Below, in pieces: positions 26,934 to 40,252 of a stretch of 64,000 nt of DNA. Location of the stretch: contig NZ_CP097218.1 of the NCBI RefSeq assembly GCF_023373525.1, positions 2,046,001 to 2,110,000 on the forward strand, in the 5' to 3' direction. Numbering within the stretch: position 1 is the first letter of the stretch; the number at the start of each line of letters is the position of its first letter. The notes under the pieces are model-generated. The model did not search any database, was not told where the DNA came from, and saw only the letters and a program-made list of their open reading frames with translations. Made by a program: the position numbers and the translations under genes. This stretch comes from Brachybacterium kimchii (GTDB taxonomy: Bacteria > Actinomycetota > Actinomycetes > Actinomycetales > Dermabacteraceae).

Positions 26934-29141
26934 TCAGGCGGAGTCCCTGAGGGCACCGAGGTCCTCGTCGGGACGGCCGAGCGCGTCGAGACGGTCGAGC
27001 TCCTCGAGGATCTCGCACTCGTCGACGAAGCGCCGTCCCTCCGGCCCGCGCTCCTCGAACACCTCGTCGTCGGGCCCGAAGCTCGCGAAGGCGGCGGCGG
27101 TCATCCGGTCCTCGTCCTCCGGGGAGAGGTCCGCGTAGGGGTCGCGCGCGGGAAGGTCCTCCCCTTCGACGAGCATCCGCAGGTGGCGGCGGCTGCGCAC
27201 GGGGTTCACTGCGTCGGGGCAGGCCGCCGGATCGGCGTCACCGACCGCTCCCCCGCCGGCCCTGGCACTCGCTGAACCGAGGATCTTCGCGGGATCGTGG
27301 GCCAGGCCGGTGAGCGACGGCGGGGTGACGGTCGCCGTGGCGCCGAGGCGACTGGTCCAGGTCACGTGGTGGCTGCCGTCGGCCGACGGCACGTGCTCGA
27401 CGCGGCCGAGCGCCTCCTTCGTGAGATTGCAGTGCGCGCACAGGCCCTGACCGTTCGCGACGCTCGTCGGCCCGCCCTCGGCGACCGGCCGGATGTGGTC
27501 GGCGTGGCGGATCGGCGCGCCGCAGTACGGGCCCACGCAGCTGACATCGCGCAGCCGCATGTACAGCTTGAGGCCCTCGGGGAAAGCACGCGAGCGGGAG
27601 TCCATCGCGATCAGCTCGCCCGTGGTCGGGTGCGTGAACACGCGGCGCAGGGAATCGCCCATCTGCTGCTCGAAGCGCGCGAGGTCGTGCTCGATCTGCT
27701 CGCGCGAGGGCGTGCTCCGAGCCTCTGCCGGAGAGGGCGGGTTCGGGGGCACCGGGGCGGGGCGCGACGGCGGGCCGCTCGCGGCGATCTCACCGGTGAG
27801 GAGCGGTGGCGCACCACGGTCCCGGCGCATGATGTCGATGATGTCGAGGGTTTGCCTGCGTGGGGTCGTTCCCGGACTCTGCCGATCGTGACCAGCACCG
27901 AGGCCCGTGGTTCCGTCTGCTGCGACGGCTCCGTGCACATGCTCGGGCCCCGATGCGGCTCCCTGTTCATGGACCGAGCCGGCGAGGGGCCGGCCGGAGG
28001 CGGTGCGCCGTTCCGGGAAGCGCTGGTCGAGCACGTGGTCGCGCACCTGCGTGGCCTCGACCAGGCCGTACCCCTCGACGACGGCGGGTTCGCCGTGTGT
28101 GGGCGTGAACAGGGAGCGCTCGGAGATCACCACGTTGATCGCGAAGTGCACCGGGTCCATCGTCTCGTCGCGGCCCAGCAGGGTGTCGGCGAAGAGATCG
28201 GCCATGAGCTGGCCGTGCGTGCGCTCGTCACCCTGGACCTGCAGGGATTCGGCGGCGAGGGCGAGCTTGCGGCGGATCGCGGCGCAGTCGGGGCCGGGGA
28301 GCACCGCGGTGACGGTGCCCATGCCGTGTGCACCGGGGGTGACGGTGACGCCGCGCTGCTTCGCGGCACGCCTGTGGCGCTCCGGTCCGCCGCGCGGGTC
28401 GAGCTTCTGGGCGAGCGCACCGACCTCCTGCGACCAGCGCGCGGGGGTCGAGCCGTCGAGATCGGGCAGGTGCTCGGCGAGGACGTCGTCGACGTGGCCG
28501 CGCAGCTCGGGCTCGACGGGCCCGGTGGAGCGGCCGACGGCGTATCCGGCGTCGGCCTGCATCGTTCCGCGCGCGAGGGCCTCGAACATGCGGGGCATCT
28601 CGCGGGTCATCCGCTGCCCGGCTCGCAGTCTCCTCGAGGCCGCGGCCGGTGAGATGCGCGAGGCCATCTGGATCTCACCGGTGGTGCGCCGGCCCTGGTC
28701 CCTCACGGGCAGGCCCGCGCGCACGTCCTGCGCGCGGATCGCATCGTCGAGCTCCGACATGGTGCGCATCTCGAGCGCGGCGAGGGCCGAGCGCATCTCG
28801 TCGATGCCCACGAGCACGCGCGAGAGATCGGCTGCCTCGAGGGCCGCCGGGCCGATGAGCGCCGCGTCGGCGATCGCCGAGGTCGTCTCGCGCAGGTCGA
28901 TGGTGCCTGCGTCGATCCTGCCCGCGTCGATCGCGCGTGCGTCGATGGTGCGTGCGTCGTCCGTGCGGCCGTCCGACGCGGAACGGAGCAGCACTGCCCC
29001 GTCCGCCGAAAGACTGATCCGGGACGACGCATCCGACGCTCCCGGCCGCGCGGGCACCGCGGCTGGGCGGGCGGCGATGCCGTCCGTCCCAGGTGCGGTC
29101 GCGCCGTGCGCGCCGAGGTCTTCGTCGTCCATGGCACCCAT
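26934..29141 (-). CDS. HNH endonuclease with DUF222 domain
   Basis: A 735-aa protein of the actinobacterial DUF222-HNH family. The N-terminal ~130 residues are low complexity and include five-residue tandem repeats (DARTIDARAIDAGRIDAGTI). DUF222 covers about 150-450 (MASRISPAAASRRLRAGQRM), and the HNH core lies near 590-625: YCGAPIRHADHIRPVAEGGP, then NGQGLCAHCNLTKE. This gives a Cys/His metal site and the catalytic His. These multicopy genes are often linked to mobility, but their biological role is unsettled. The start is ATG 29141 or, with better spacing from GAGGAGC, ATG 29132. It stands alone, convergent with the inositol operon. Confidence 0.85.
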   Translation of the reverse strand: MGAMDDEDLGAHGATAPGTDGIAARPAAVPARPGASDASSRISLSADGAVLLRSASDGRTDDARTIDARAIDAGRIDAGTIDLRETTSAIADAALIGPAALEAADLSRVLVGIDEMRSALAALEMRTMSELDDAIRAQDVRAGLPVRDQGRRTTGEIQMASRISPAAASRRLRAGQRMTREMPRMFEALARGTMQADAGYAVGRSTGPVEPELRGHVDDVLAEHLPDLDGSTPARWSQEVGALAQKLDPRGGPERHRRAAKQRGVTVTPGAHGMGTVTAVLPGPDCAAIRRKLALAAESLQVQGDERTHGQLMADLFADTLLGRDETMDPVHFAINVVISERSLFTPTHGEPAVVEGYGLVEATQVRDHVLDQRFPERRTASGRPLAGSVHEQGAASGPEHVHGAVAADGTTGLGAGHDRQSPGTTPRRQTLDIIDIMRRDRGAPPLLTGEIAASGPPSRPAPVPPNPPSPAEARSTPSREQIEHDLARFEQQMGDSLRRVFTHPTTGELIAMDSRSRAFPEGLKLYMRLRDVSCVGPYCGAPIRHADHIRPVAEGGPTSVANGQGLCAHCNLTKEALGRVEHVPSADGSHHVTWTSRLGATATVTPPSLTGLAHDPAKILGSASARAGGGAVGDADPAACPDAVNPVRSRRHLRMLVEGEDLPARDPYADLSPEDEDRMTAAAFASFGPDDEVFEERGPEGRRFVDECEILEELDRLDALGRPDEDLGALRDSA

Positions 29142-30923: not shown

Positions 30924-30997
30924 GCGGGTGTAGTTCAATGGTAGAACTTCAGCTTCCCAAGCTGACAGCGCGGGTTCGATTCCCGTCACCCGCTCCA
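30924..30997 (+). tRNA. tRNA-Gly (anticodon CCC)
   Basis: A complete cloverleaf: acceptor GCGGGTG pairs with CACCCGC (30987-30993). The anticodon stem TCAGC/GCTGA encloses the loop TTCCCAA with anticodon CCC at 30956-30958, and the T-arm contains the standard GGTTCGATTCC. The discriminator T is followed by an encoded CCA (30995-30997). It reads GGG glycine codons. A strong terminator hairpin follows ten nt downstream. Confidence 0.97.
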
Positions 30998-33850: not shown

Positions 33851-36535
33851 TCAGCGCTTCTTCTTCGCGCCGCGTCCCTTCTTCTTCCGACGTGACGAGC
33901 CCGAGGCCGCCGCTGCGCCCGCTCGCGCGGACGCATCGGCTCCGTCGGTCTCCTCGTCGTCGTCCGCCCAGTCCATGAGCAGGGGGTTCGTCGACTCGGC
34001 GGCGTCCTCCCCGTCGTCCTCGGCCCGGGAGAAGAGGGGCTTGGAGTCCTCCCCGAAGTCGTCCTCGAGGTCCGTCTGCGGGGCGGTGATCTCGTAGAGC
34101 CAGCAGGCGCCGAGCGCGAGCAGCGCCACGAGCGCCACGCCCCAGCGCAGGAACTCGTTGGTGCCGTCGATCATCGCGTTGATCATCGAGGCCACCGAGA
34201 GCACGCCGATCAGGGAGCCGACCAGCGCCGCCATCGAGATGAAGGTGCCCAGGGCGTTGCGCAGGCCGCCCATGAGCACCGTGGTGCCGAGCGCGCCCGA
34301 GTGGCCCCACGAGCCCGGGCCGCCGTAGCGGCCGCTCTCGATGACGCGCACCGACGAGGTGCTCAGGCCCGCGGCGAGCGTCGAGGCCACGGCGGTCGCG
34401 AGGGCCGCGAGCACCAGGGTCCCGACGAAGGCCGGGAGGGCCGACGGGCCCAGGCCGAAGCCCGCGACCACCGGCATCAGCGCAGCGATCGCGACCGGCG
34501 CGAGGGCGGCACGGCGCGAGGTGAGCGGGAGATCGTCGAAGTCCATGGTGTCGCGGCCGTCGAGGATCGCGGCGCGGGTCTCGACGACGGCGGCGACGCC
34601 CAGGCGGCGCAGACCGTGCAGCAGCGAGGAGGCGATCAGGGCGATCGTCACCACGCCCAGGGCGATCCCGCCGAGCACCGCGACCGAGTCGGGCGTCATC
34701 GCGTGCAGGGCGCGGTCCTCCCAGACGCTCTTCGCGCGCGAGGCGCCGGCGACCGCGGCGACGATCGTGGCGAGGAAGGGCAGCGCGGCGAGGGCCGCGA
34801 CCAGCTGGACGCCGACGGCGGTCTCGGCGCCGCCGGTGCGGCTCGCGTCGCGCCACGGCTCGGCCGTGCCGGGACGGTCCGCGAAGGCGCCCGACGTGTG
34901 CAGGGCGGCGCTCGCGGTGATCACCACGAGTCCGCCGAGGCCCGCGAAGGCCACGAGCGAGAGCGCCAGGGCCGGGACGCCCTCGGCGAGCACCACGAGC
35001 ACCGCCAGCACGAGCGCGCCGAGCGCGAGGACGCCCGCGGCCGCGAGTGCCGCGGTGCCCAGCACGGTCATCGCGCCGAGGGCCCCGCCGGTGCGGCTGC
35101 TGCGCGCGGCCCGCAGCGAGGCGGACTGGTGCGGGTCGAGCACGCGCGCGGCGAGGAGCTGGGCGAGCAGCGTGATCACGGCGCCCAGGGCCAGGCCCAG
35201 TGCGGCGAGCGCGTTGGGGTGGGTGCCGTAGAGGGTGAGGGTGTCCAGGAAGGTGTTCGCGTAGTGCGACTCGTCGGTCGCGGTGATCCACTGCGACATG
35301 TCGGAGATCGCCGAGGTGATCTGGCTCTGCAGGTCGCTGCGGGGCACCGGCGAGTCGGAGCCCGTGAGGGCCTTGTCGGTGAAGCTGCCCATGCCCACGG
35401 CGGTGAAGCGCAGGTTCTGGTAGCTCGAGGGCAGCCACAGCGCGACGCCCGCGATCATCCCGCCGACGCCCAGCAGGGCCGGCACGAGCTGCCCGGCGCG
35501 CAGGGCCGTGCGCTCGCGGCCCTCGCGGCCGGTGTGCGGGAACAGGGCGACGACGAGGGCGACCGCGACGGCCACCGTGAGCGCGAGGATCGTGATGCCC
35601 AGGCCGTGCGTCGCGAAGACGGGAACGGAGACGCGGATGCCCGCGGCCGCGAGGGCCGCCGTGAGCGCGACCAGCGTGGCCGCGCGGGCGGGGCCACGGC
35701 GCAGCAGCTGCGCGAGGCGCAGGTGGGGACCGCCCGGGTTGGTCTCGTCCTCGGCGTGGATCTCGTTCTCGTCGGAGCCGACGAGCATCGTCGCGGCATG
35801 ACCCGTGCCATGGGCGAGGGAGGCGATCGCGTGCAGGGCGAGCGCGTAGACGGCGGCGCCCGCGGCGTAGGCGATGATCGGCGAGGCGGCGTCCTCGCGC
35901 ATGAAGTACACGGACAGCGCGACGGGCAGTGCGCCGATGCCCAGGGCCGTCGCGACGAACAGGCCGCCGAAGCGGGAGATCGCGCGCGGACGGTCGCTCG
36001 GGGCGATCCCGAAGGCGCTCATCATCATCCCGCTCGCGCGCCAGGCGGCGAGCGCGCCGGCCATCAGGCCGATGAGGAAGAAGCCGATGCGCAGGATGCG
36101 CACGTCGGACGAGCCGGGGACGAGCAGCAGCAGGAGTCCCGCGGGCACCCCGACCCAGCCGGCGACGACGGTCGCCGTGGTGACGAGCGAGCCCAGCCGG
36201 CGCCCCAGATCCCGGTCGACCGCGGGGTCGCCGGTGTCCGAGTCCTCCTCGGTGAGCAGGTCCGGGTCGTCCTCGTCGGCCGGGGCGATGCCCTCCTCGG
36301 CCTCGTGCGCCTCGAGGTCCTCGGCGCTCTCGGTGCTCGCTGCGTCCGCCGCGCGGGCCGACCCCTTCCTGCTCGCGCGGGACTCCGCGCGGCGCCGGGC
36401 CACGGCCGCCCCGTGATGGGCGAGGCGCGGCGGGATGATCGCGCCGAGCACGATCGCGGCGACGGCGAGGACGCCGAGCACCAGGAGCAGGACGGCGTTG
36501 TCCTCTCCGAGAGCGAAATCGGTGATGAACTCCAC
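33851..36535 (-). CDS. Membrane-bound pyrophosphatase-like protein lacking catalytic motifs
   Basis: An 894-aa polytopic membrane protein with about 15-16 helices. By eye it follows the H+-translocating pyrophosphatase (HppA) fold along its length. ENEIHAEDETNPGG (residues 256-269) sits where HppA has the EAGIPEDDPRNP segment. ADRPGTAEPWRDASRTGGAE (552-571) replaces the DNAGGI region. VRVIESGRYGGPGSWGHSGA (729-748) matches KYIEEGxxGGKGSxxHKAA, but the following GDTVGDPxKDT has become GTTVLMGGLRN (750-760). The Asp/Lys ligands for pyrophosphate and Mg2+ are therefore gone and enzymatic activity is unlikely. Extra parts are an acidic loop (60-108) and a Lys/Arg-rich C-terminus (882-894). Start GTG 36535 with GGAG upstream. 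Confidence 0.72.
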   Translation of the reverse strand: MEFITDFALGEDNAVLLLVLGVLAVAAIVLGAIIPPRLAHHGAAVARRRAESRASRKGSARAADAASTESAEDLEAHEAEEGIAPADEDDPDLLTEEDSDTGDPAVDRDLGRRLGSLVTTATVVAGWVGVPAGLLLLLVPGSSDVRILRIGFFLIGLMAGALAAWRASGMMMSAFGIAPSDRPRAISRFGGLFVATALGIGALPVALSVYFMREDAASPIIAYAAGAAVYALALHAIASLAHGTGHAATMLVGSDENEIHAEDETNPGGPHLRLAQLLRRGPARAATLVALTAALAAAGIRVSVPVFATHGLGITILALTVAVAVALVVALFPHTGREGRERTALRAGQLVPALLGVGGMIAGVALWLPSSYQNLRFTAVGMGSFTDKALTGSDSPVPRSDLQSQITSAISDMSQWITATDESHYANTFLDTLTLYGTHPNALAALGLALGAVITLLAQLLAARVLDPHQSASLRAARSSRTGGALGAMTVLGTAALAAAGVLALGALVLAVLVVLAEGVPALALSLVAFAGLGGLVVITASAALHTSGAFADRPGTAEPWRDASRTGGAETAVGVQLVAALAALPFLATIVAAVAGASRAKSVWEDRALHAMTPDSVAVLGGIALGVVTIALIASSLLHGLRRLGVAAVVETRAAILDGRDTMDFDDLPLTSRRAALAPVAIAALMPVVAGFGLGPSALPAFVGTLVLAALATAVASTLAAGLSTSSVRVIESGRYGGPGSWGHSGALGTTVLMGGLRNALGTFISMAALVGSLIGVLSVASMINAMIDGTNEFLRWGVALVALLALGACWLYEITAPQTDLEDDFGEDSKPLFSRAEDDGEDAAESTNPLLMDWADDDEETDGADASARAGAAAASGSSRRKKKGRGAKKKR

Positions 36536-36669: not shown

Positions 36670-38661
36670 TCAGCCCAGCAGCGAGAGGTCCAGGACGTCC
36701 GGGGCGCCGTCGACGACGCGGATCGGGACGCCCCAGTCCTGCTGGTGCATGTGGCAGGCCGGGAACTCGACCGACGGATCCGCGTCGCACGAGGCGGCGC
36801 GCGCGTTCACGTGCAGCACGCCGTCCGAGTACGCGGGGTCCAGCACGACCGTGCGCTCGAGGGCGGTCGAGGTGCCCGATCCGGAGGTGAGCATCGAGGT
36901 GGGCGTCGTCGAGATCGACACCTGGGTCGAGGGGCCCAGCGAGTCGTCGAGCTTGTGCCCGGGCGGCGGGGTGAACAGCACGCGCACCGTGAGGGCGCCG
37001 GGGCCCACCTCGGTGACCGGGCGCGAGGTGCGCTGCGCGCCCTCGTCGAGCACGCGCTCGGCGGCGCGGGCCACGGGCACCCAGGTGAGGCGGTGCGCGC
37101 CGGACTCGACGACGATGAGCTGGCCGATGCCGTCGATCGGCGCGCCGATCACCGCGCCCGAGGGCTCGGCGAGATCGGTCGCGACGGTCACCACGGTGCC
37201 CTTGCCCTCGTCGCCCGTGAGGTCGATGAGGCGGATCGCGCCGTTGTAGGTGTCGCAGACGGCGAGGCGGCCGTCGGGCAGCGCGGTCACGCCCAGCGGG
37301 TGCTGCAGGCGGGCGTGGTCGGCGGCGCCGTCGACGTGCCCGAAGTCGAACAGGCCCTTGCCCACGACGGTGCGCACGGTGAGGGTCTGCGGGTCCAGCA
37401 GGCGGATCGCGGAGGACTCGGAGTCGGCGATCGCGAGGGTCCCGTCGTCCATCTCGTCGATCCCGGAGGGCTGCGCCCACCAGGAGGACACGAGGGCGCC
37501 GTCGACGAGGCCCTCCTGGGTGGTGCCCGCGAGCACGGCGAGCGAGCCGGTGCGCGGATCGAACGTCCAGATCTGGTGGATGCCGGCCATGGTGATCACG
37601 ACGCGGTCCAGGGCGTGGGACCAGGTGAGGTCCCATGGCGTGGAGAGCGCGAAGCCGAGCGGGTCGCCCTCCCCCGTGGGCAGGGCCTGGCCCTGCATCC
37701 ACTGGGCGCCGTCGCCCGCGACGGTGCCCACGATGCTCGTGGTGCGCGAGCGCAGCAGGCGGCTGCGGCCGAGCTCCACCGAGCGCAGCAGATGGTTGGC
37801 GCTGTCGGCGACCAGGACCTCGTAGCCGGCCTCGTCGGCGACCTCCGGCGGGAGGACGAGCACGCCGTTGGGCTCGGCGAACAGGACGTCGGGCGCGTCG
37901 CCGTCGGCGCGGCCCCGTCGGCCCGCCCCGATGATCTCGGAGACCGTGGAGCCGTCGGGCTCGAAGACCACGAGGCGGTGCTGTCCGGCGTCGGAGACGA
38001 TCAGGCGGCCGTCGTCGAGGGTCGCGACCTTCGAGGGGAAGCGCAGGGTCTGGGGGACGCGATCGGCGATCACCGTCGGCGCGGGGCCGCGGCGCAGGGA
38101 GCCGTCGGCCTCCCCCTCGGTCACGAGCTGCGCGGCGAGCGAGTCGATCGTGTCCGCATGGCCCTCGCCCGAGAGGTTCGCGGCGATGCGGCCGTGGGTG
38201 TCCAGCACGATGAGGGTGGGCCAGGCGCGCGCCCCGTACTCGCTCCAGGTGCTGAGCTCGGGGTCGTCGAGCACCGGGTGGGTGATCTCGTAGCGCTCGA
38301 TGTTCGCGGCGAGGGCGTCGGCGTCCTTCTCGAACTCGAACTTCGGGGAGTGCACGCCGACGACGACGAGCTCGTCGGCCCACTTCTCCTCGATCGGCCG
38401 CAGCTCGTCGAGGACGTGCAGGCAGTTCACGCAGCAGAAGGCCCAGAAGTCCAGGACGACGACCTTGCCGCGCAGGTCCTCGAGGTCCAGCTCGATGCCG
38501 CCGGTGTTCAGCCAGCCGCGGCCGCGCAGGGCGCTCCCGTGCACGCGGACGTCGCGCGCGGCGCCCCCTGCGGTCGCGGACGAGGGGCCGCCCGCGGGCG
38601 GAGCGGAGGCAGATCCGTCGCTGCTGGCAGGTCCGTCGGTCGCTTCGCCTGATGAAGTCAT
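36670..38661 (-). CDS. Thioredoxin-like/NHL-repeat protein (NHLRC2-like)
   Basis: A 663-aa protein. After a Ser/Ala/Gly-rich N-terminus (1-35) there is a thioredoxin-like domain with CxxC Cys77-Val-Asn-Cys80 in VVLDFWAFCCVNCLHVLDEL and the cis-Pro region GARAWPTLIVLDTHG. Next come about five NHL beta-propeller repeats (for example FAEPNGVLVLPPEVADEAGY, LQHPLGVTALPDGRLAVCDT) and a C-terminal beta domain. This architecture is that of NHLRC2 and bacterial relatives; a redox or scaffold role is likely but the substrate is unknown. No signal peptide or lipobox is seen, so it is probably cytoplasmic. Start ATG 38661; the 134-nt gap downstream of the pyrophosphatase-like gene holds only GC-rich sequence. 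Confidence 0.85.
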   Translation of the reverse strand: MTSSGEATDGPASSDGSASAPPAGGPSSATAGGAARDVRVHGSALRGRGWLNTGGIELDLEDLRGKVVVLDFWAFCCVNCLHVLDELRPIEEKWADELVVVGVHSPKFEFEKDADALAANIERYEITHPVLDDPELSTWSEYGARAWPTLIVLDTHGRIAANLSGEGHADTIDSLAAQLVTEGEADGSLRRGPAPTVIADRVPQTLRFPSKVATLDDGRLIVSDAGQHRLVVFEPDGSTVSEIIGAGRRGRADGDAPDVLFAEPNGVLVLPPEVADEAGYEVLVADSANHLLRSVELGRSRLLRSRTTSIVGTVAGDGAQWMQGQALPTGEGDPLGFALSTPWDLTWSHALDRVVITMAGIHQIWTFDPRTGSLAVLAGTTQEGLVDGALVSSWWAQPSGIDEMDDGTLAIADSESSAIRLLDPQTLTVRTVVGKGLFDFGHVDGAADHARLQHPLGVTALPDGRLAVCDTYNGAIRLIDLTGDEGKGTVVTVATDLAEPSGAVIGAPIDGIGQLIVVESGAHRLTWVPVARAAERVLDEGAQRTSRPVTEVGPGALTVRVLFTPPPGHKLDDSLGPSTQVSISTTPTSMLTSGSGTSTALERTVVLDPAYSDGVLHVNARAASCDADPSVEFPACHMHQQDWGVPIRVVDGAPDVLDLSLLG

Positions 38662-38789: not shown

Positions 38790-39551
38790 TCACCAGCTCT
38801 CGATCCAGCTCAGCAGGCCGGGGTCGGCGAGGGTGCGCAGGGAGAGGTCCGCGGGCGGGGCCTCGCCGTCCTGCGGGATCGTGATCAGGCGCAGCCCCGC
38901 CGAGCGCGCGGCCTGCGCGCCCGTGTGGGAGTCCTCGAAGGCGAGGGCCTGGGCGGGCCGGGCGCCGAGGGCGCGGGCTCCCGCCTCGTACATGTCGGGG
39001 AACGGCTTGCCGCGCTCCACGGTGTCGGCCGACTCGAGCACCCGGAAGTAGTCGCGCAGACCGGCGCGGCCCAGCTTGTCCTCGAGCATCTCGTGCCAGG
39101 AGTTCGAGGCGCAGGCGATCGGGACACGCGCACTGGTCGCGGCGAGGACCTCGTGCACGCCCGGGAGGACGTCGAGGTCGCCCGCGACGTCGCTGCGGAA
39201 GCGCTCGCGGGTCGCGTGGAGGACGTCCTCGTAGGGGGCGCCGGCGAGGTCCGCGATCACCCGGGAGGCGTCCTCGACGGTGAGGCCCAGCGGCAGGGCG
39301 CCCTCGGCGGCGGCAGGGTCCACACCGTAGCGGGCGAGGATCGCGGGCTGCGTGCGGTGGCTCCACGCGGTCTCCGTGTCCAGCAGCATCCCGTCGCAGT
39401 CGAAGACGACGGCGCGCGGCGTCCAGTCGCCGAAGGCCTCGCGGAAGCGGTCGCCGGACGTGCCGGGGGCGGCCGCGGCGGAGCTGGCCGACGCTGGGGA
39501 CGACGCAGCGGGCGCGGGGGCAGGACCGGGCGTCGGGGCGGGGGTGTTCAT
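38790..39551 (-). CDS. HAD superfamily hydrolase, beta-phosphoglucomutase-like
   Basis: A 253-aa HAD subfamily IA protein: motif I VVFDCDGMLLDTE (nucleophile Asp, ~residues 47-59), motif II ACASNSWHEMLEDK, the Lys in ERGKPFPDMYEAGARALG and motif III/IV ALAFEDSHTGAQAARSAG. Such enzymes dephosphorylate sugar phosphates or nucleotides, or act as phosphoglucomutases; the substrate is not evident. The N-terminal 38 residues are Ala/Pro/Ser-rich linker. The start ATG 39551 overlaps the stop of a second HAD gene (ATGA); the two share their motifs and look like a tandem duplication. Confidence 0.87.
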   Translation of the reverse strand: MNTPAPTPGPAPAPAASSPASASSAAAAPGTSGDRFREAFGDWTPRAVVFDCDGMLLDTETAWSHRTQPAILARYGVDPAAAEGALPLGLTVEDASRVIADLAGAPYEDVLHATRERFRSDVAGDLDVLPGVHEVLAATSARVPIACASNSWHEMLEDKLGRAGLRDYFRVLESADTVERGKPFPDMYEAGARALGARPAQALAFEDSHTGAQAARSAGLRLITIPQDGEAPPADLSLRTLADPGLLSWIESW

Positions 39552-40252
39552 CGGGCTCTCTCCCAGGTGCGGATCCAGGCGTGCAGGTCGGTGTCCTCGA
39601 GGCTCGCCAGGGTGCGGTCGGCGACGGGCTGCTGCCCGGGGATCGAGGGGACGGCGATGAGTGGCAGCCCTGCCGCGCGGGCGGCCGTCGCCCCGGTCTC
39701 GGAGTCCTCGAAGGCCAGGGTGTCGGCGACGTCGGCGCCCAGGCGCCGGGCGGCCTCGACGTAGATGTCGGGCGCGGGCTTGCCCTCGGCGACGTCGTCG
39801 ACGCTCACGGAGGTGAGGACGACGTCCCCGATCCCGAGGCCCTCGAGGGCGTCGTCCAGGAGGTCGCGCGGGGAGTTCGAGGCGATCGCGACCGGGACGC
39901 GCGCGGCGACCGCGCGCACGGTCTCGACGGCGCCGGGCAGGACGCCCACGGCGTCCGTGAGGGCCTCCCGGTGCAGGGCCATGAGCTCGTCGGCCGCGGC
40001 ATAGGGATCCTGGCCGGTCTCGGCGGAGAGCGTGCGCACGACGGTCTCGATGCTGCGGCCCGTGAGCGACCTGCGCGTCTCCTCGTCGATCCTCGCTCCG
40101 TGGCCCGCGAGGTAGCGGGCCTGCGTCGCGAGCCACTCGGACTCGGTGTCCACGAGCAGCCCGTCGCAGTCGAAGACGACGGCGCGCGGGCTCCAGCGCG
40201 GCGGCCAGGTCGCCAGCGGGCCGGGGTCAGGAGCGGAGGGGGCGGAAGTCAC
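39548..40252 (-). CDS. HAD superfamily hydrolase, beta-phosphoglucomutase-like
   Basis: A 234-aa HAD IA hydrolase: VVFDCDGLLVDTESEWLATQ (motif I), AIASNSPRDLLDDALEGLG (motif II), EGKPAPDIYVEAARRLGADV (Lys) and LAFEDSETGATAARAAGLPL (motif III/IV). It is closely similar in motif layout to the next gene and translationally coupled to it, which suggests duplication followed by substrate divergence. Probably a cytoplasmic phosphatase for a small phosphorylated sugar. It starts at 40252, the end of a 190-nt gap that carries the terminator of metY. Confidence 0.87.
   Translation of the reverse strand: MTSAPSAPDPGPLATWPPRWSPRAVVFDCDGLLVDTESEWLATQARYLAGHGARIDEETRRSLTGRSIETVVRTLSAETGQDPYAAADELMALHREALTDAVGVLPGAVETVRAVAARVPVAIASNSPRDLLDDALEGLGIGDVVLTSVSVDDVAEGKPAPDIYVEAARRLGADVADTLAFEDSETGATAARAAGLPLIAVPSIPGQQPVADRTLASLEDTDLHAWIRTWERAR

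Follow-up and report, generated by a model that had tools for sequence, protein, structure and literature searches.

We observed that a gene of Brachybacterium kimchii encodes a full-length protein of the membrane-bound pyrophosphatase (mPPase) fold, as judged by profile alignment and predicted structure, which no longer has the site for pyrophosphate and Mg2+, has lost the ion gate for the most part, and shows strict conservation in loops and tail instead. The gene lies at 33851-36535 (-) of the 64,000-nucleotide stretch that was analysed (the window; contig NZ_CP097218.1), and represents a real, conserved and apparently non-catalytic branch of the mPPase superfamily. It is constantly found behind a thioredoxin/NHL-propeller gene with HAD genes further upstream, so that the parts of the plant protein SOQ1 are present as separate genes. 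Together, these observations suggest that an old pump has been co-opted as the membrane component of another system.

The gene has a GTG start and specifies 894 residues; the family consensus begins with MDLIT, and the window protein likewise with MEFIT. The sides of the loops were assigned from the mPPase helix order, with the 17th helix of actinobacterial mPPases. On this topology, Lys and Arg number 50 in 358 residues inside and 8 in 165 residues outside; loop 1-2 was placed from the mPPase loop order and the charge count. The features are as follows.

33851..36535 (-): apparently non-catalytic mPPase homologue, 894 aa, 17 transmembrane helices by homology, N-terminus out, C-terminus in
36185..36430 (-): residues 36-117, putative cytoplasmic loop 1-2, a variable basic, then acidic insert, with a partly conserved DRDLGRRLG at its end
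35675..35800 (-): residues 246-287, the place of mPPase DVGADLVGK, DNVGDNVGD and D6.50; Asp and Lys are gone, Arg has appeared (R273, R279, R280) and E256 is kept
35216..35437 (-): residues 367-440, enlarged extracytoplasmic loop 8-9
34835..34900 (-): residues 546-567, the place of D-x-x-GPxxDNAGG and GNTT; D553 kept
34685..34747 (-): residues 597-617, extracytoplasmic loop 12-13, with a conserved WEDRxLH
34223..34360 (-): residues 726-771, the place of DNAKK, KGS--H, GDTVGDPxKDT and K16.50; Asp lost, with a new near-invariant GRYGGxGSWGHSGAL
34028..34087 (-): residues 817-836, conserved tail motif TAPExDLED...PLF
33854..34027 (-): residues 837-894, acidic, then Lys/Arg-rich tail, of low pLDDT with one conserved Trp (W856)
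36670..38661 (-): SOQ1/NHLRC2-like protein of 663 aa with a thioredoxin-like domain (CCVNC) and an NHL beta-propeller, encoded directly upstream (Pfam and PDB matches)
38790..39509 (-): second HAD phosphatase copy (beta-phosphoglucomutase-like), with an approximate start
39548..40252 (-): HAD phosphatase (beta-phosphoglucomutase-like), 234 aa
33094..33810 (+): gene for a TetR-family regulator, transcribed towards the mPPase homologue

A Pfam scan of the protein returned no family, and its NCBIfam match to NF001952 (sodium-translocating pyrophosphatase) reached E 8.6e-6 and 24 bits against a cut-off of 912; some relatives do score above the PF03030 cut-off, while the window protein does not. 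At least 70 relatives were found among 5.8 billion proteins (the best 7993 candidates by common words were scored). All species named among the 70 listed are Brachybacterium, and the database names are pyrophosphatase, pyrophosphate-energized pump or hypothetical protein. A single-sequence search of the PDB sequences gave nothing relevant, while a profile of 60 relatives detected TmPPase (1.8e-13), PaPPase (1.1e-7) and VrPPase (1.1e-4). When 70 relatives were aligned by hhalign with 18 canonical mPPases (the 18 of 40 loci, on one strand and selected by motif, that also supply the joint alignment and the table of 26 sites), we obtained E 1.2e-32 over 767 columns. The reversed control gave E 0.2, and five block-shuffled controls gave 8e-4 to 8e-3 over 21-48 columns. 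Rougher alignments gave E 0.0079 (-M 50) and 1.2e-24 (-M first), and refined alignments 4e-31 (-M 50). With these controls, the homology to the mPPase fold superfamily extends over the full length of the sequence.

The predicted model has a full helix bundle with the mPPase core fold, and overlays on the solved mPPases. A preliminary description of this DNA had placed three stretches on the HppA scaffold, had taken the fold and helix order to be kept, and had proposed a profile-profile comparison with H_PPase. All of this held up: the comparison is the significant hhalign match given above, and residues 256-267, 552-569 and 729-745, as stated there, align to mPPase E-GIPEDDPRN, SDNA-GIAEM and K-IVEDG-YGGKGS--H. 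The likeness to the known enzymes (PF03030; TmPPase 5lzq and 9g8j, VrPPase 4a01 and 6afx, PaPPase 8b37) lies in the predicted fold, the helix order and homology over about 770 columns; the differences are the missing active-site Asp, Asn and Lys, a mostly lost ion gate, an enlarged loop 8-9 and new loop and tail motifs, and the protein is missed by PF03030. In a tree that included 20 of the 40 canonical loci (picked on one strand, with the motif), the canonical and non-catalytic groups stood apart with support 1.0, on a stem of 1.56 substitutions per site. Since this stem is so long, the origin of the non-catalytic group cannot be placed on the tree.

We examined the catalytic residues using those alignment columns that correspond to the metal ligands of the VrPPase literature. 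In the table of 26 sites, none of the ten active-site Asp positions was acidic in the window protein; acidic residues at these positions averaged 0.78 per row in Brachybacterium (65 rows) and 1.4 per row in other genera (five rows). All ten Asp were present in 40 of 40 canonical mPPase loci (both strands, picked without the motif) and in eight of nine further hits from Brachybacterium, the ninth (G001, cut off) having seven, with gaps for the rest. The sites of N503, K216, K227, K676 and K706 were all replaced, that of K706 by Arg in 63 of the 65 Brachybacterium rows. The window protein therefore lacks the Asp/Asn/Lys set with which an mPPase binds Mg2+ and PPi, and this loss of residues is what supports the proposal that it is a non-enzymatic protein derived from H+-PPase. 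The related claim that every PPi- and Mg2+-binding Asp/Lys had been replaced was slightly overstated: the ten Asp and the active-site Lys are indeed gone, but the mPPase residues E256, D263, D553 and H745 are kept in the window protein, and D6.50 in 49 of the 65 Brachybacterium rows. PMC10897367 describes the active-site residues of mPPases as completely conserved, and names D6.43 and D16.39 as the two Asp holding the attacking water. By spacing from the gate residues, these correspond to R280 and N760 in the window protein. Since the scaffold is kept and the catalytic site is not, database names such as 'pyrophosphatase' probably misstate the function. We found no paper on an mPPase pseudoenzyme in the open-licence literature; the iRhoms, membrane pseudoenzymes among the rhomboid proteases, would be comparable in principle only, as inactive polytopic enzymes retained for regulation in another enzyme family.

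The gene directly upstream encodes, from its translation and its Pfam and PDB matches, a CC(I/V)NC thioredoxin-like domain joined to an NHL propeller. Among solved structures, the protein is closest to Arabidopsis SOQ1 (7djj, 7.4e-85) and human NHLRC2 (6gc1, 1.2e-63). In all 39 other copies, each from a different genome, a SOQ1/NHLRC2-like gene was upstream and on the same strand, a set that leaves out G005, G006 and G023; in G006 the two genes lie side by side on one contig. Match ends were separated by anything from an overlap to 167 bp, with a gap of 134 bp in the window. A HAD gene was upstream in all 18 long loci carrying the mPPase homologue (17, and one by tblastn only), and 32 of the 39 copies were flanked on the opposite side by a TetR gene (two of the seven exceptions are cut by contig ends, and the other five belong to g23 or g25). 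Much of the surrounding gene order was conserved as well. Six outgroup loci of the same order had the NHLRC2-like gene with no mPPase neighbour, and the g27 loci L117 and L118 showed the order HAD-HAD-NHLRC2-TetR with no mPPase homologue in between. This g27 arrangement could reflect either loss or late arrival of the gene.

The NHLRC2 family is essential in mammals, its function being described as unknown in PMC6107167. The paper reports no conserved neighbours in the 7 bacterial genomes viewed, except for a HAD gene in one actinobacterium. It also describes SOQ1 as HAD-TM-Trx-propeller, with the propeller across the membrane from the HAD domain, and gives NHLRC2 a cleft of negative charge as the presumed binding site for a ligand or partner. 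The upstream gene is clearly related to SOQ1, and the HAD genes that adjoin it parallel the HAD domain of SOQ1 (PMC6107167). However, the parts are separate genes here; the membrane part is an mPPase-fold protein, where SOQ1 has a single helix; and no signal peptide was seen by eye in the propeller protein, whereas the SOQ1 propeller lies across the membrane from HAD. A search of the open-licence literature for Dermabacter with thioredoxin and NHL found no paper.

We tentatively favour, at a little below an even chance, a role as a non-catalytic mPPase-fold membrane platform for the NHLRC2/SOQ1-like module, a partnership read from gene order alone. Such a platform would hydrolyse no pyrophosphate and pump no ion. 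Loops 8-9 and 12-13, extended on the extracytoplasmic side, would serve as the binding surface for a ligand or an envelope partner, and helix movement inherited from the pump would pass this state across the membrane. At the cytoplasmic face, the Arg-bearing former active site, the GRYGGxGSWGH loop and the DLED...PLF tail would anchor or control the soluble thioredoxin-propeller protein, and the HAD phosphatases might be held or regulated together with it. As a guess, the basic tail end and the old pocket, which has gained Arg in Brachybacterium, could meet the negative cleft of the NHLRC2-like protein. The preliminary description had left a choice of channel, sensor or scaffold without mentioning this neighbour; its constancy leans towards scaffold or sensor.

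Several points stand against the platform. The partnership is gene order within one family, and may reflect shared ancestry and not function. As the NHLRC2-like gene stands alone in the six outgroup loci and in g27, the partner is not everywhere dependent on the mPPase homologue. The gene also evolves fast, the GRYGGxGSWGH loop and the Arg cluster are strict only in Brachybacterium, and the SOQ1 propeller lies on the other side of the membrane from its HAD domain, whereas no signal peptide was seen by eye here. It is a further and more doubtful step, though a possible one, that a dead mPPase has given rise to an undescribed class of transmembrane sensor or scaffold, forming a bacterial envelope redox module with the SOQ1/NHLRC2-like thioredoxin-propeller protein and HAD phosphatases. 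If true, this would open a bacterial route to the role of the NHLRC2/SOQ1 family, and the locus would be a bacterial setting for testing the function of the NHLRC2 family.

We also considered a repurposed transporter or channel, in which the mPPase scaffold would still move a solute, or leak ions, through a rebuilt path without pyrophosphate and the Arg-bearing pocket would bind an anion. The ion gate residues of mPPases are given as D6.50, E6.53/57, S6.54, D/N16.46 and K16.50 in PMC10897367. At D6.50, E6.53, S6.54, N16.46 and K16.50 the window protein has T287, A290, L291, S767 and L771, so that the gate is not retained. Besides the predicted full helix bundle, a transport role would fit the change in net charge over the 26 sites, from -8.0 in the canonical rows to -1.5 in the relatives (-1.0 in the window), and a charge pair at the R208/D260 sites that survives in most relatives (R-D in 47 and R-E in 5 of 65). 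However, both pair residues are replaced in the window protein (H235, T287), and these changes may simply follow clade; four gate positions have become A, L, S and L; and strict conservation is mostly in loops and tail. We regard this reading as rather unlikely. As an observation in its own right, the alignment columns of window residues 235 and 287 may be a membrane charge pair that co-varies and derives from the former ion path: where R-D or R-E is not kept, as in the window protein, His or Gln is mostly paired with Thr or Ala, and the partner is non-acidic in 10 of 12 cases.

As can be seen from the near-invariant positions (97% identity over 65 rows), conservation now lies away from the old catalytic stretch, where 0 of 25 positions (546-570) qualify. 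The counts were 13 of 74 in loop 8-9 (367-440), 5 of 21 in loop 12-13 (597-617), 7 of 21 at residues 470-490, 10 of 31 at 735-765, 7 of 20 in the tail (817-836) and 8 of 40 in the first 40 residues. Residues 381-430 of loop 8-9 are gaps in the aligned canonical rows, and D, L and the second D of the tail motif DLED are invariant in the wider alignment A2 too. The added acidic loop and Lys/Arg-rich tail reported earlier are both present, but poorly conserved and largely of low pLDDT. The invariant or near-invariant polar residues of loops 8-9 and 12-13 (W367, R376, D387, R399, Q405, W605, D607, R608, H611) might instead point to a new enzyme on the mPPase scaffold with another active site, for example at the extracytoplasmic face of these two loops. 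No known catalytic arrangement was recognised among them and Pfam finds nothing, and we consider this improbable.

The homologue was detected in 35 of 36 Brachybacterium genomes (G000-G035), and also in G058 and G059. In G025, the only one of the 36 without it, the contig ends at the neighbour gene. For 31 of the 35, the gene gave a single match spanning 730 or more of the 817 profile positions. Of the other four, G005 has the gene on two contigs, G006 only 121 positions, and G022 and G023 have it split over frames. These last (G022:C1:1121161-1123619, two matches; G023:C1:2815875-2818324, four) lie in different frames through sequencing error or decay. Six matches with an internal stop were inspected, and in each the stop was the natural end near the C-terminus; one of them, G026, has its first 42 positions in a separate frame. 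Elsewhere in Dermabacteraceae, the gene was present in 4 of 4 g23 genomes, one g24 and one g25, while g26 has a canonical mPPase and two g27 genomes gave no mPPase homologue. Counts outside Brachybacterium made with profile A1 (Brachybacterium only) are lower bounds, as the G061 copy was missed by A1 and scored 614 bits with a wider profile.

In pairwise comparison with B. endophyticum, the mPPase homologue had a dN/dS of 0.36, and the NHLRC2-like, TetR and dcd genes had values of 0.24, 0.33 and 0.11. The medians were 0.72 (91 pairs), 0.33 (91), 0.56 (66) and 0.18 (78), respectively, and the four closest pairs of the homologue gave 0.22-0.40. These are Nei-Gojobori values from 14 loci with very high GC3, and the closest pairs were judged more trustworthy than the medians. 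The values indicate a gene constrained among close relatives, yet evolving faster than its neighbours. This speed, the pieces in G022 and G023 and the absence from g27 would suit a decaying pseudogene or fast-drifting relic. However, the long frames that 31 of 35 Brachybacterium genomes have kept, 69 columns given as invariant over 60 rows and the low values of the closest pairs make that very improbable.

Canonical hppA was detected in 17 of 36 Brachybacterium genomes, and in 16 of the 35 with the homologue. It was not detected in the remaining 19, of which 15 are at least 90% complete. The apparently non-catalytic gene is widely kept in Dermabacteraceae, and because these 19 genomes show no canonical hppA, it is kept independently of the pump. 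A PF03030 search did not find canonical hppA in the genome of the window, which does have a soluble PPase (ppa). Both checks proposed in the preliminary description, for conservation across Dermabacteraceae beside the same neighbours and for a normal hppA in the same genome, thereby have their answers. As mPPases are homodimers (PMC10897367) and 16 genomes carry both genes, the homologue could be a regulatory half of a heterodimer with the canonical enzyme; this is disfavoured for the 19 genomes, that of the window included, and we hold it to be highly improbable overall. The names pyrophosphatase and pyrophosphate-energized pump given to relatives would suit an active pyrophosphatase with a rearranged metal site, but with no acidic residue at ten Asp positions, the active-site Lys gone and a soluble ppa present, this has practically no chance of being correct.

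Wider surveys gave no further clear member at order, class or phylum level, within the sensitivity of the profiles and among the matches listed. In the order, where profile A1 was run on 149 genomes, scores above 103 bits came only from the 11 matching genomes of Dermabacteraceae. In the class (148 genomes, profile A2, up to 6 best candidates scored per genome), the next match listed after this genome had 126 bits, and the three best non-self matches listed carried canonical motifs. In the phylum, 187 of 246 genomes had a PF03030 match, with E about 1e-48 or better among those listed; PF03030 misses the window's own gene, and this survey is blind to many such genes.

Some further loci were seen in passing. 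L159 (G013:C76:8300-10800), from one Brachybacterium genome, encodes a divergent mPPase, with 366 bits to the canonical profile against about 890-1100 for other loci, and with all ten Asp kept. L049:6468-10538 (g26) is a canonical mPPase extended at the C-terminus by an acidic, repetitive stretch of about 620 residues, which by eye ends in two similar repeats; Pfam recognised H_PPase only. The window also contains a DUF222 and HNH endonuclease protein at 26934-29141 (-) and a tRNA-Gly (CCC) at 30924-30997 (+), the only tRNA found in it.
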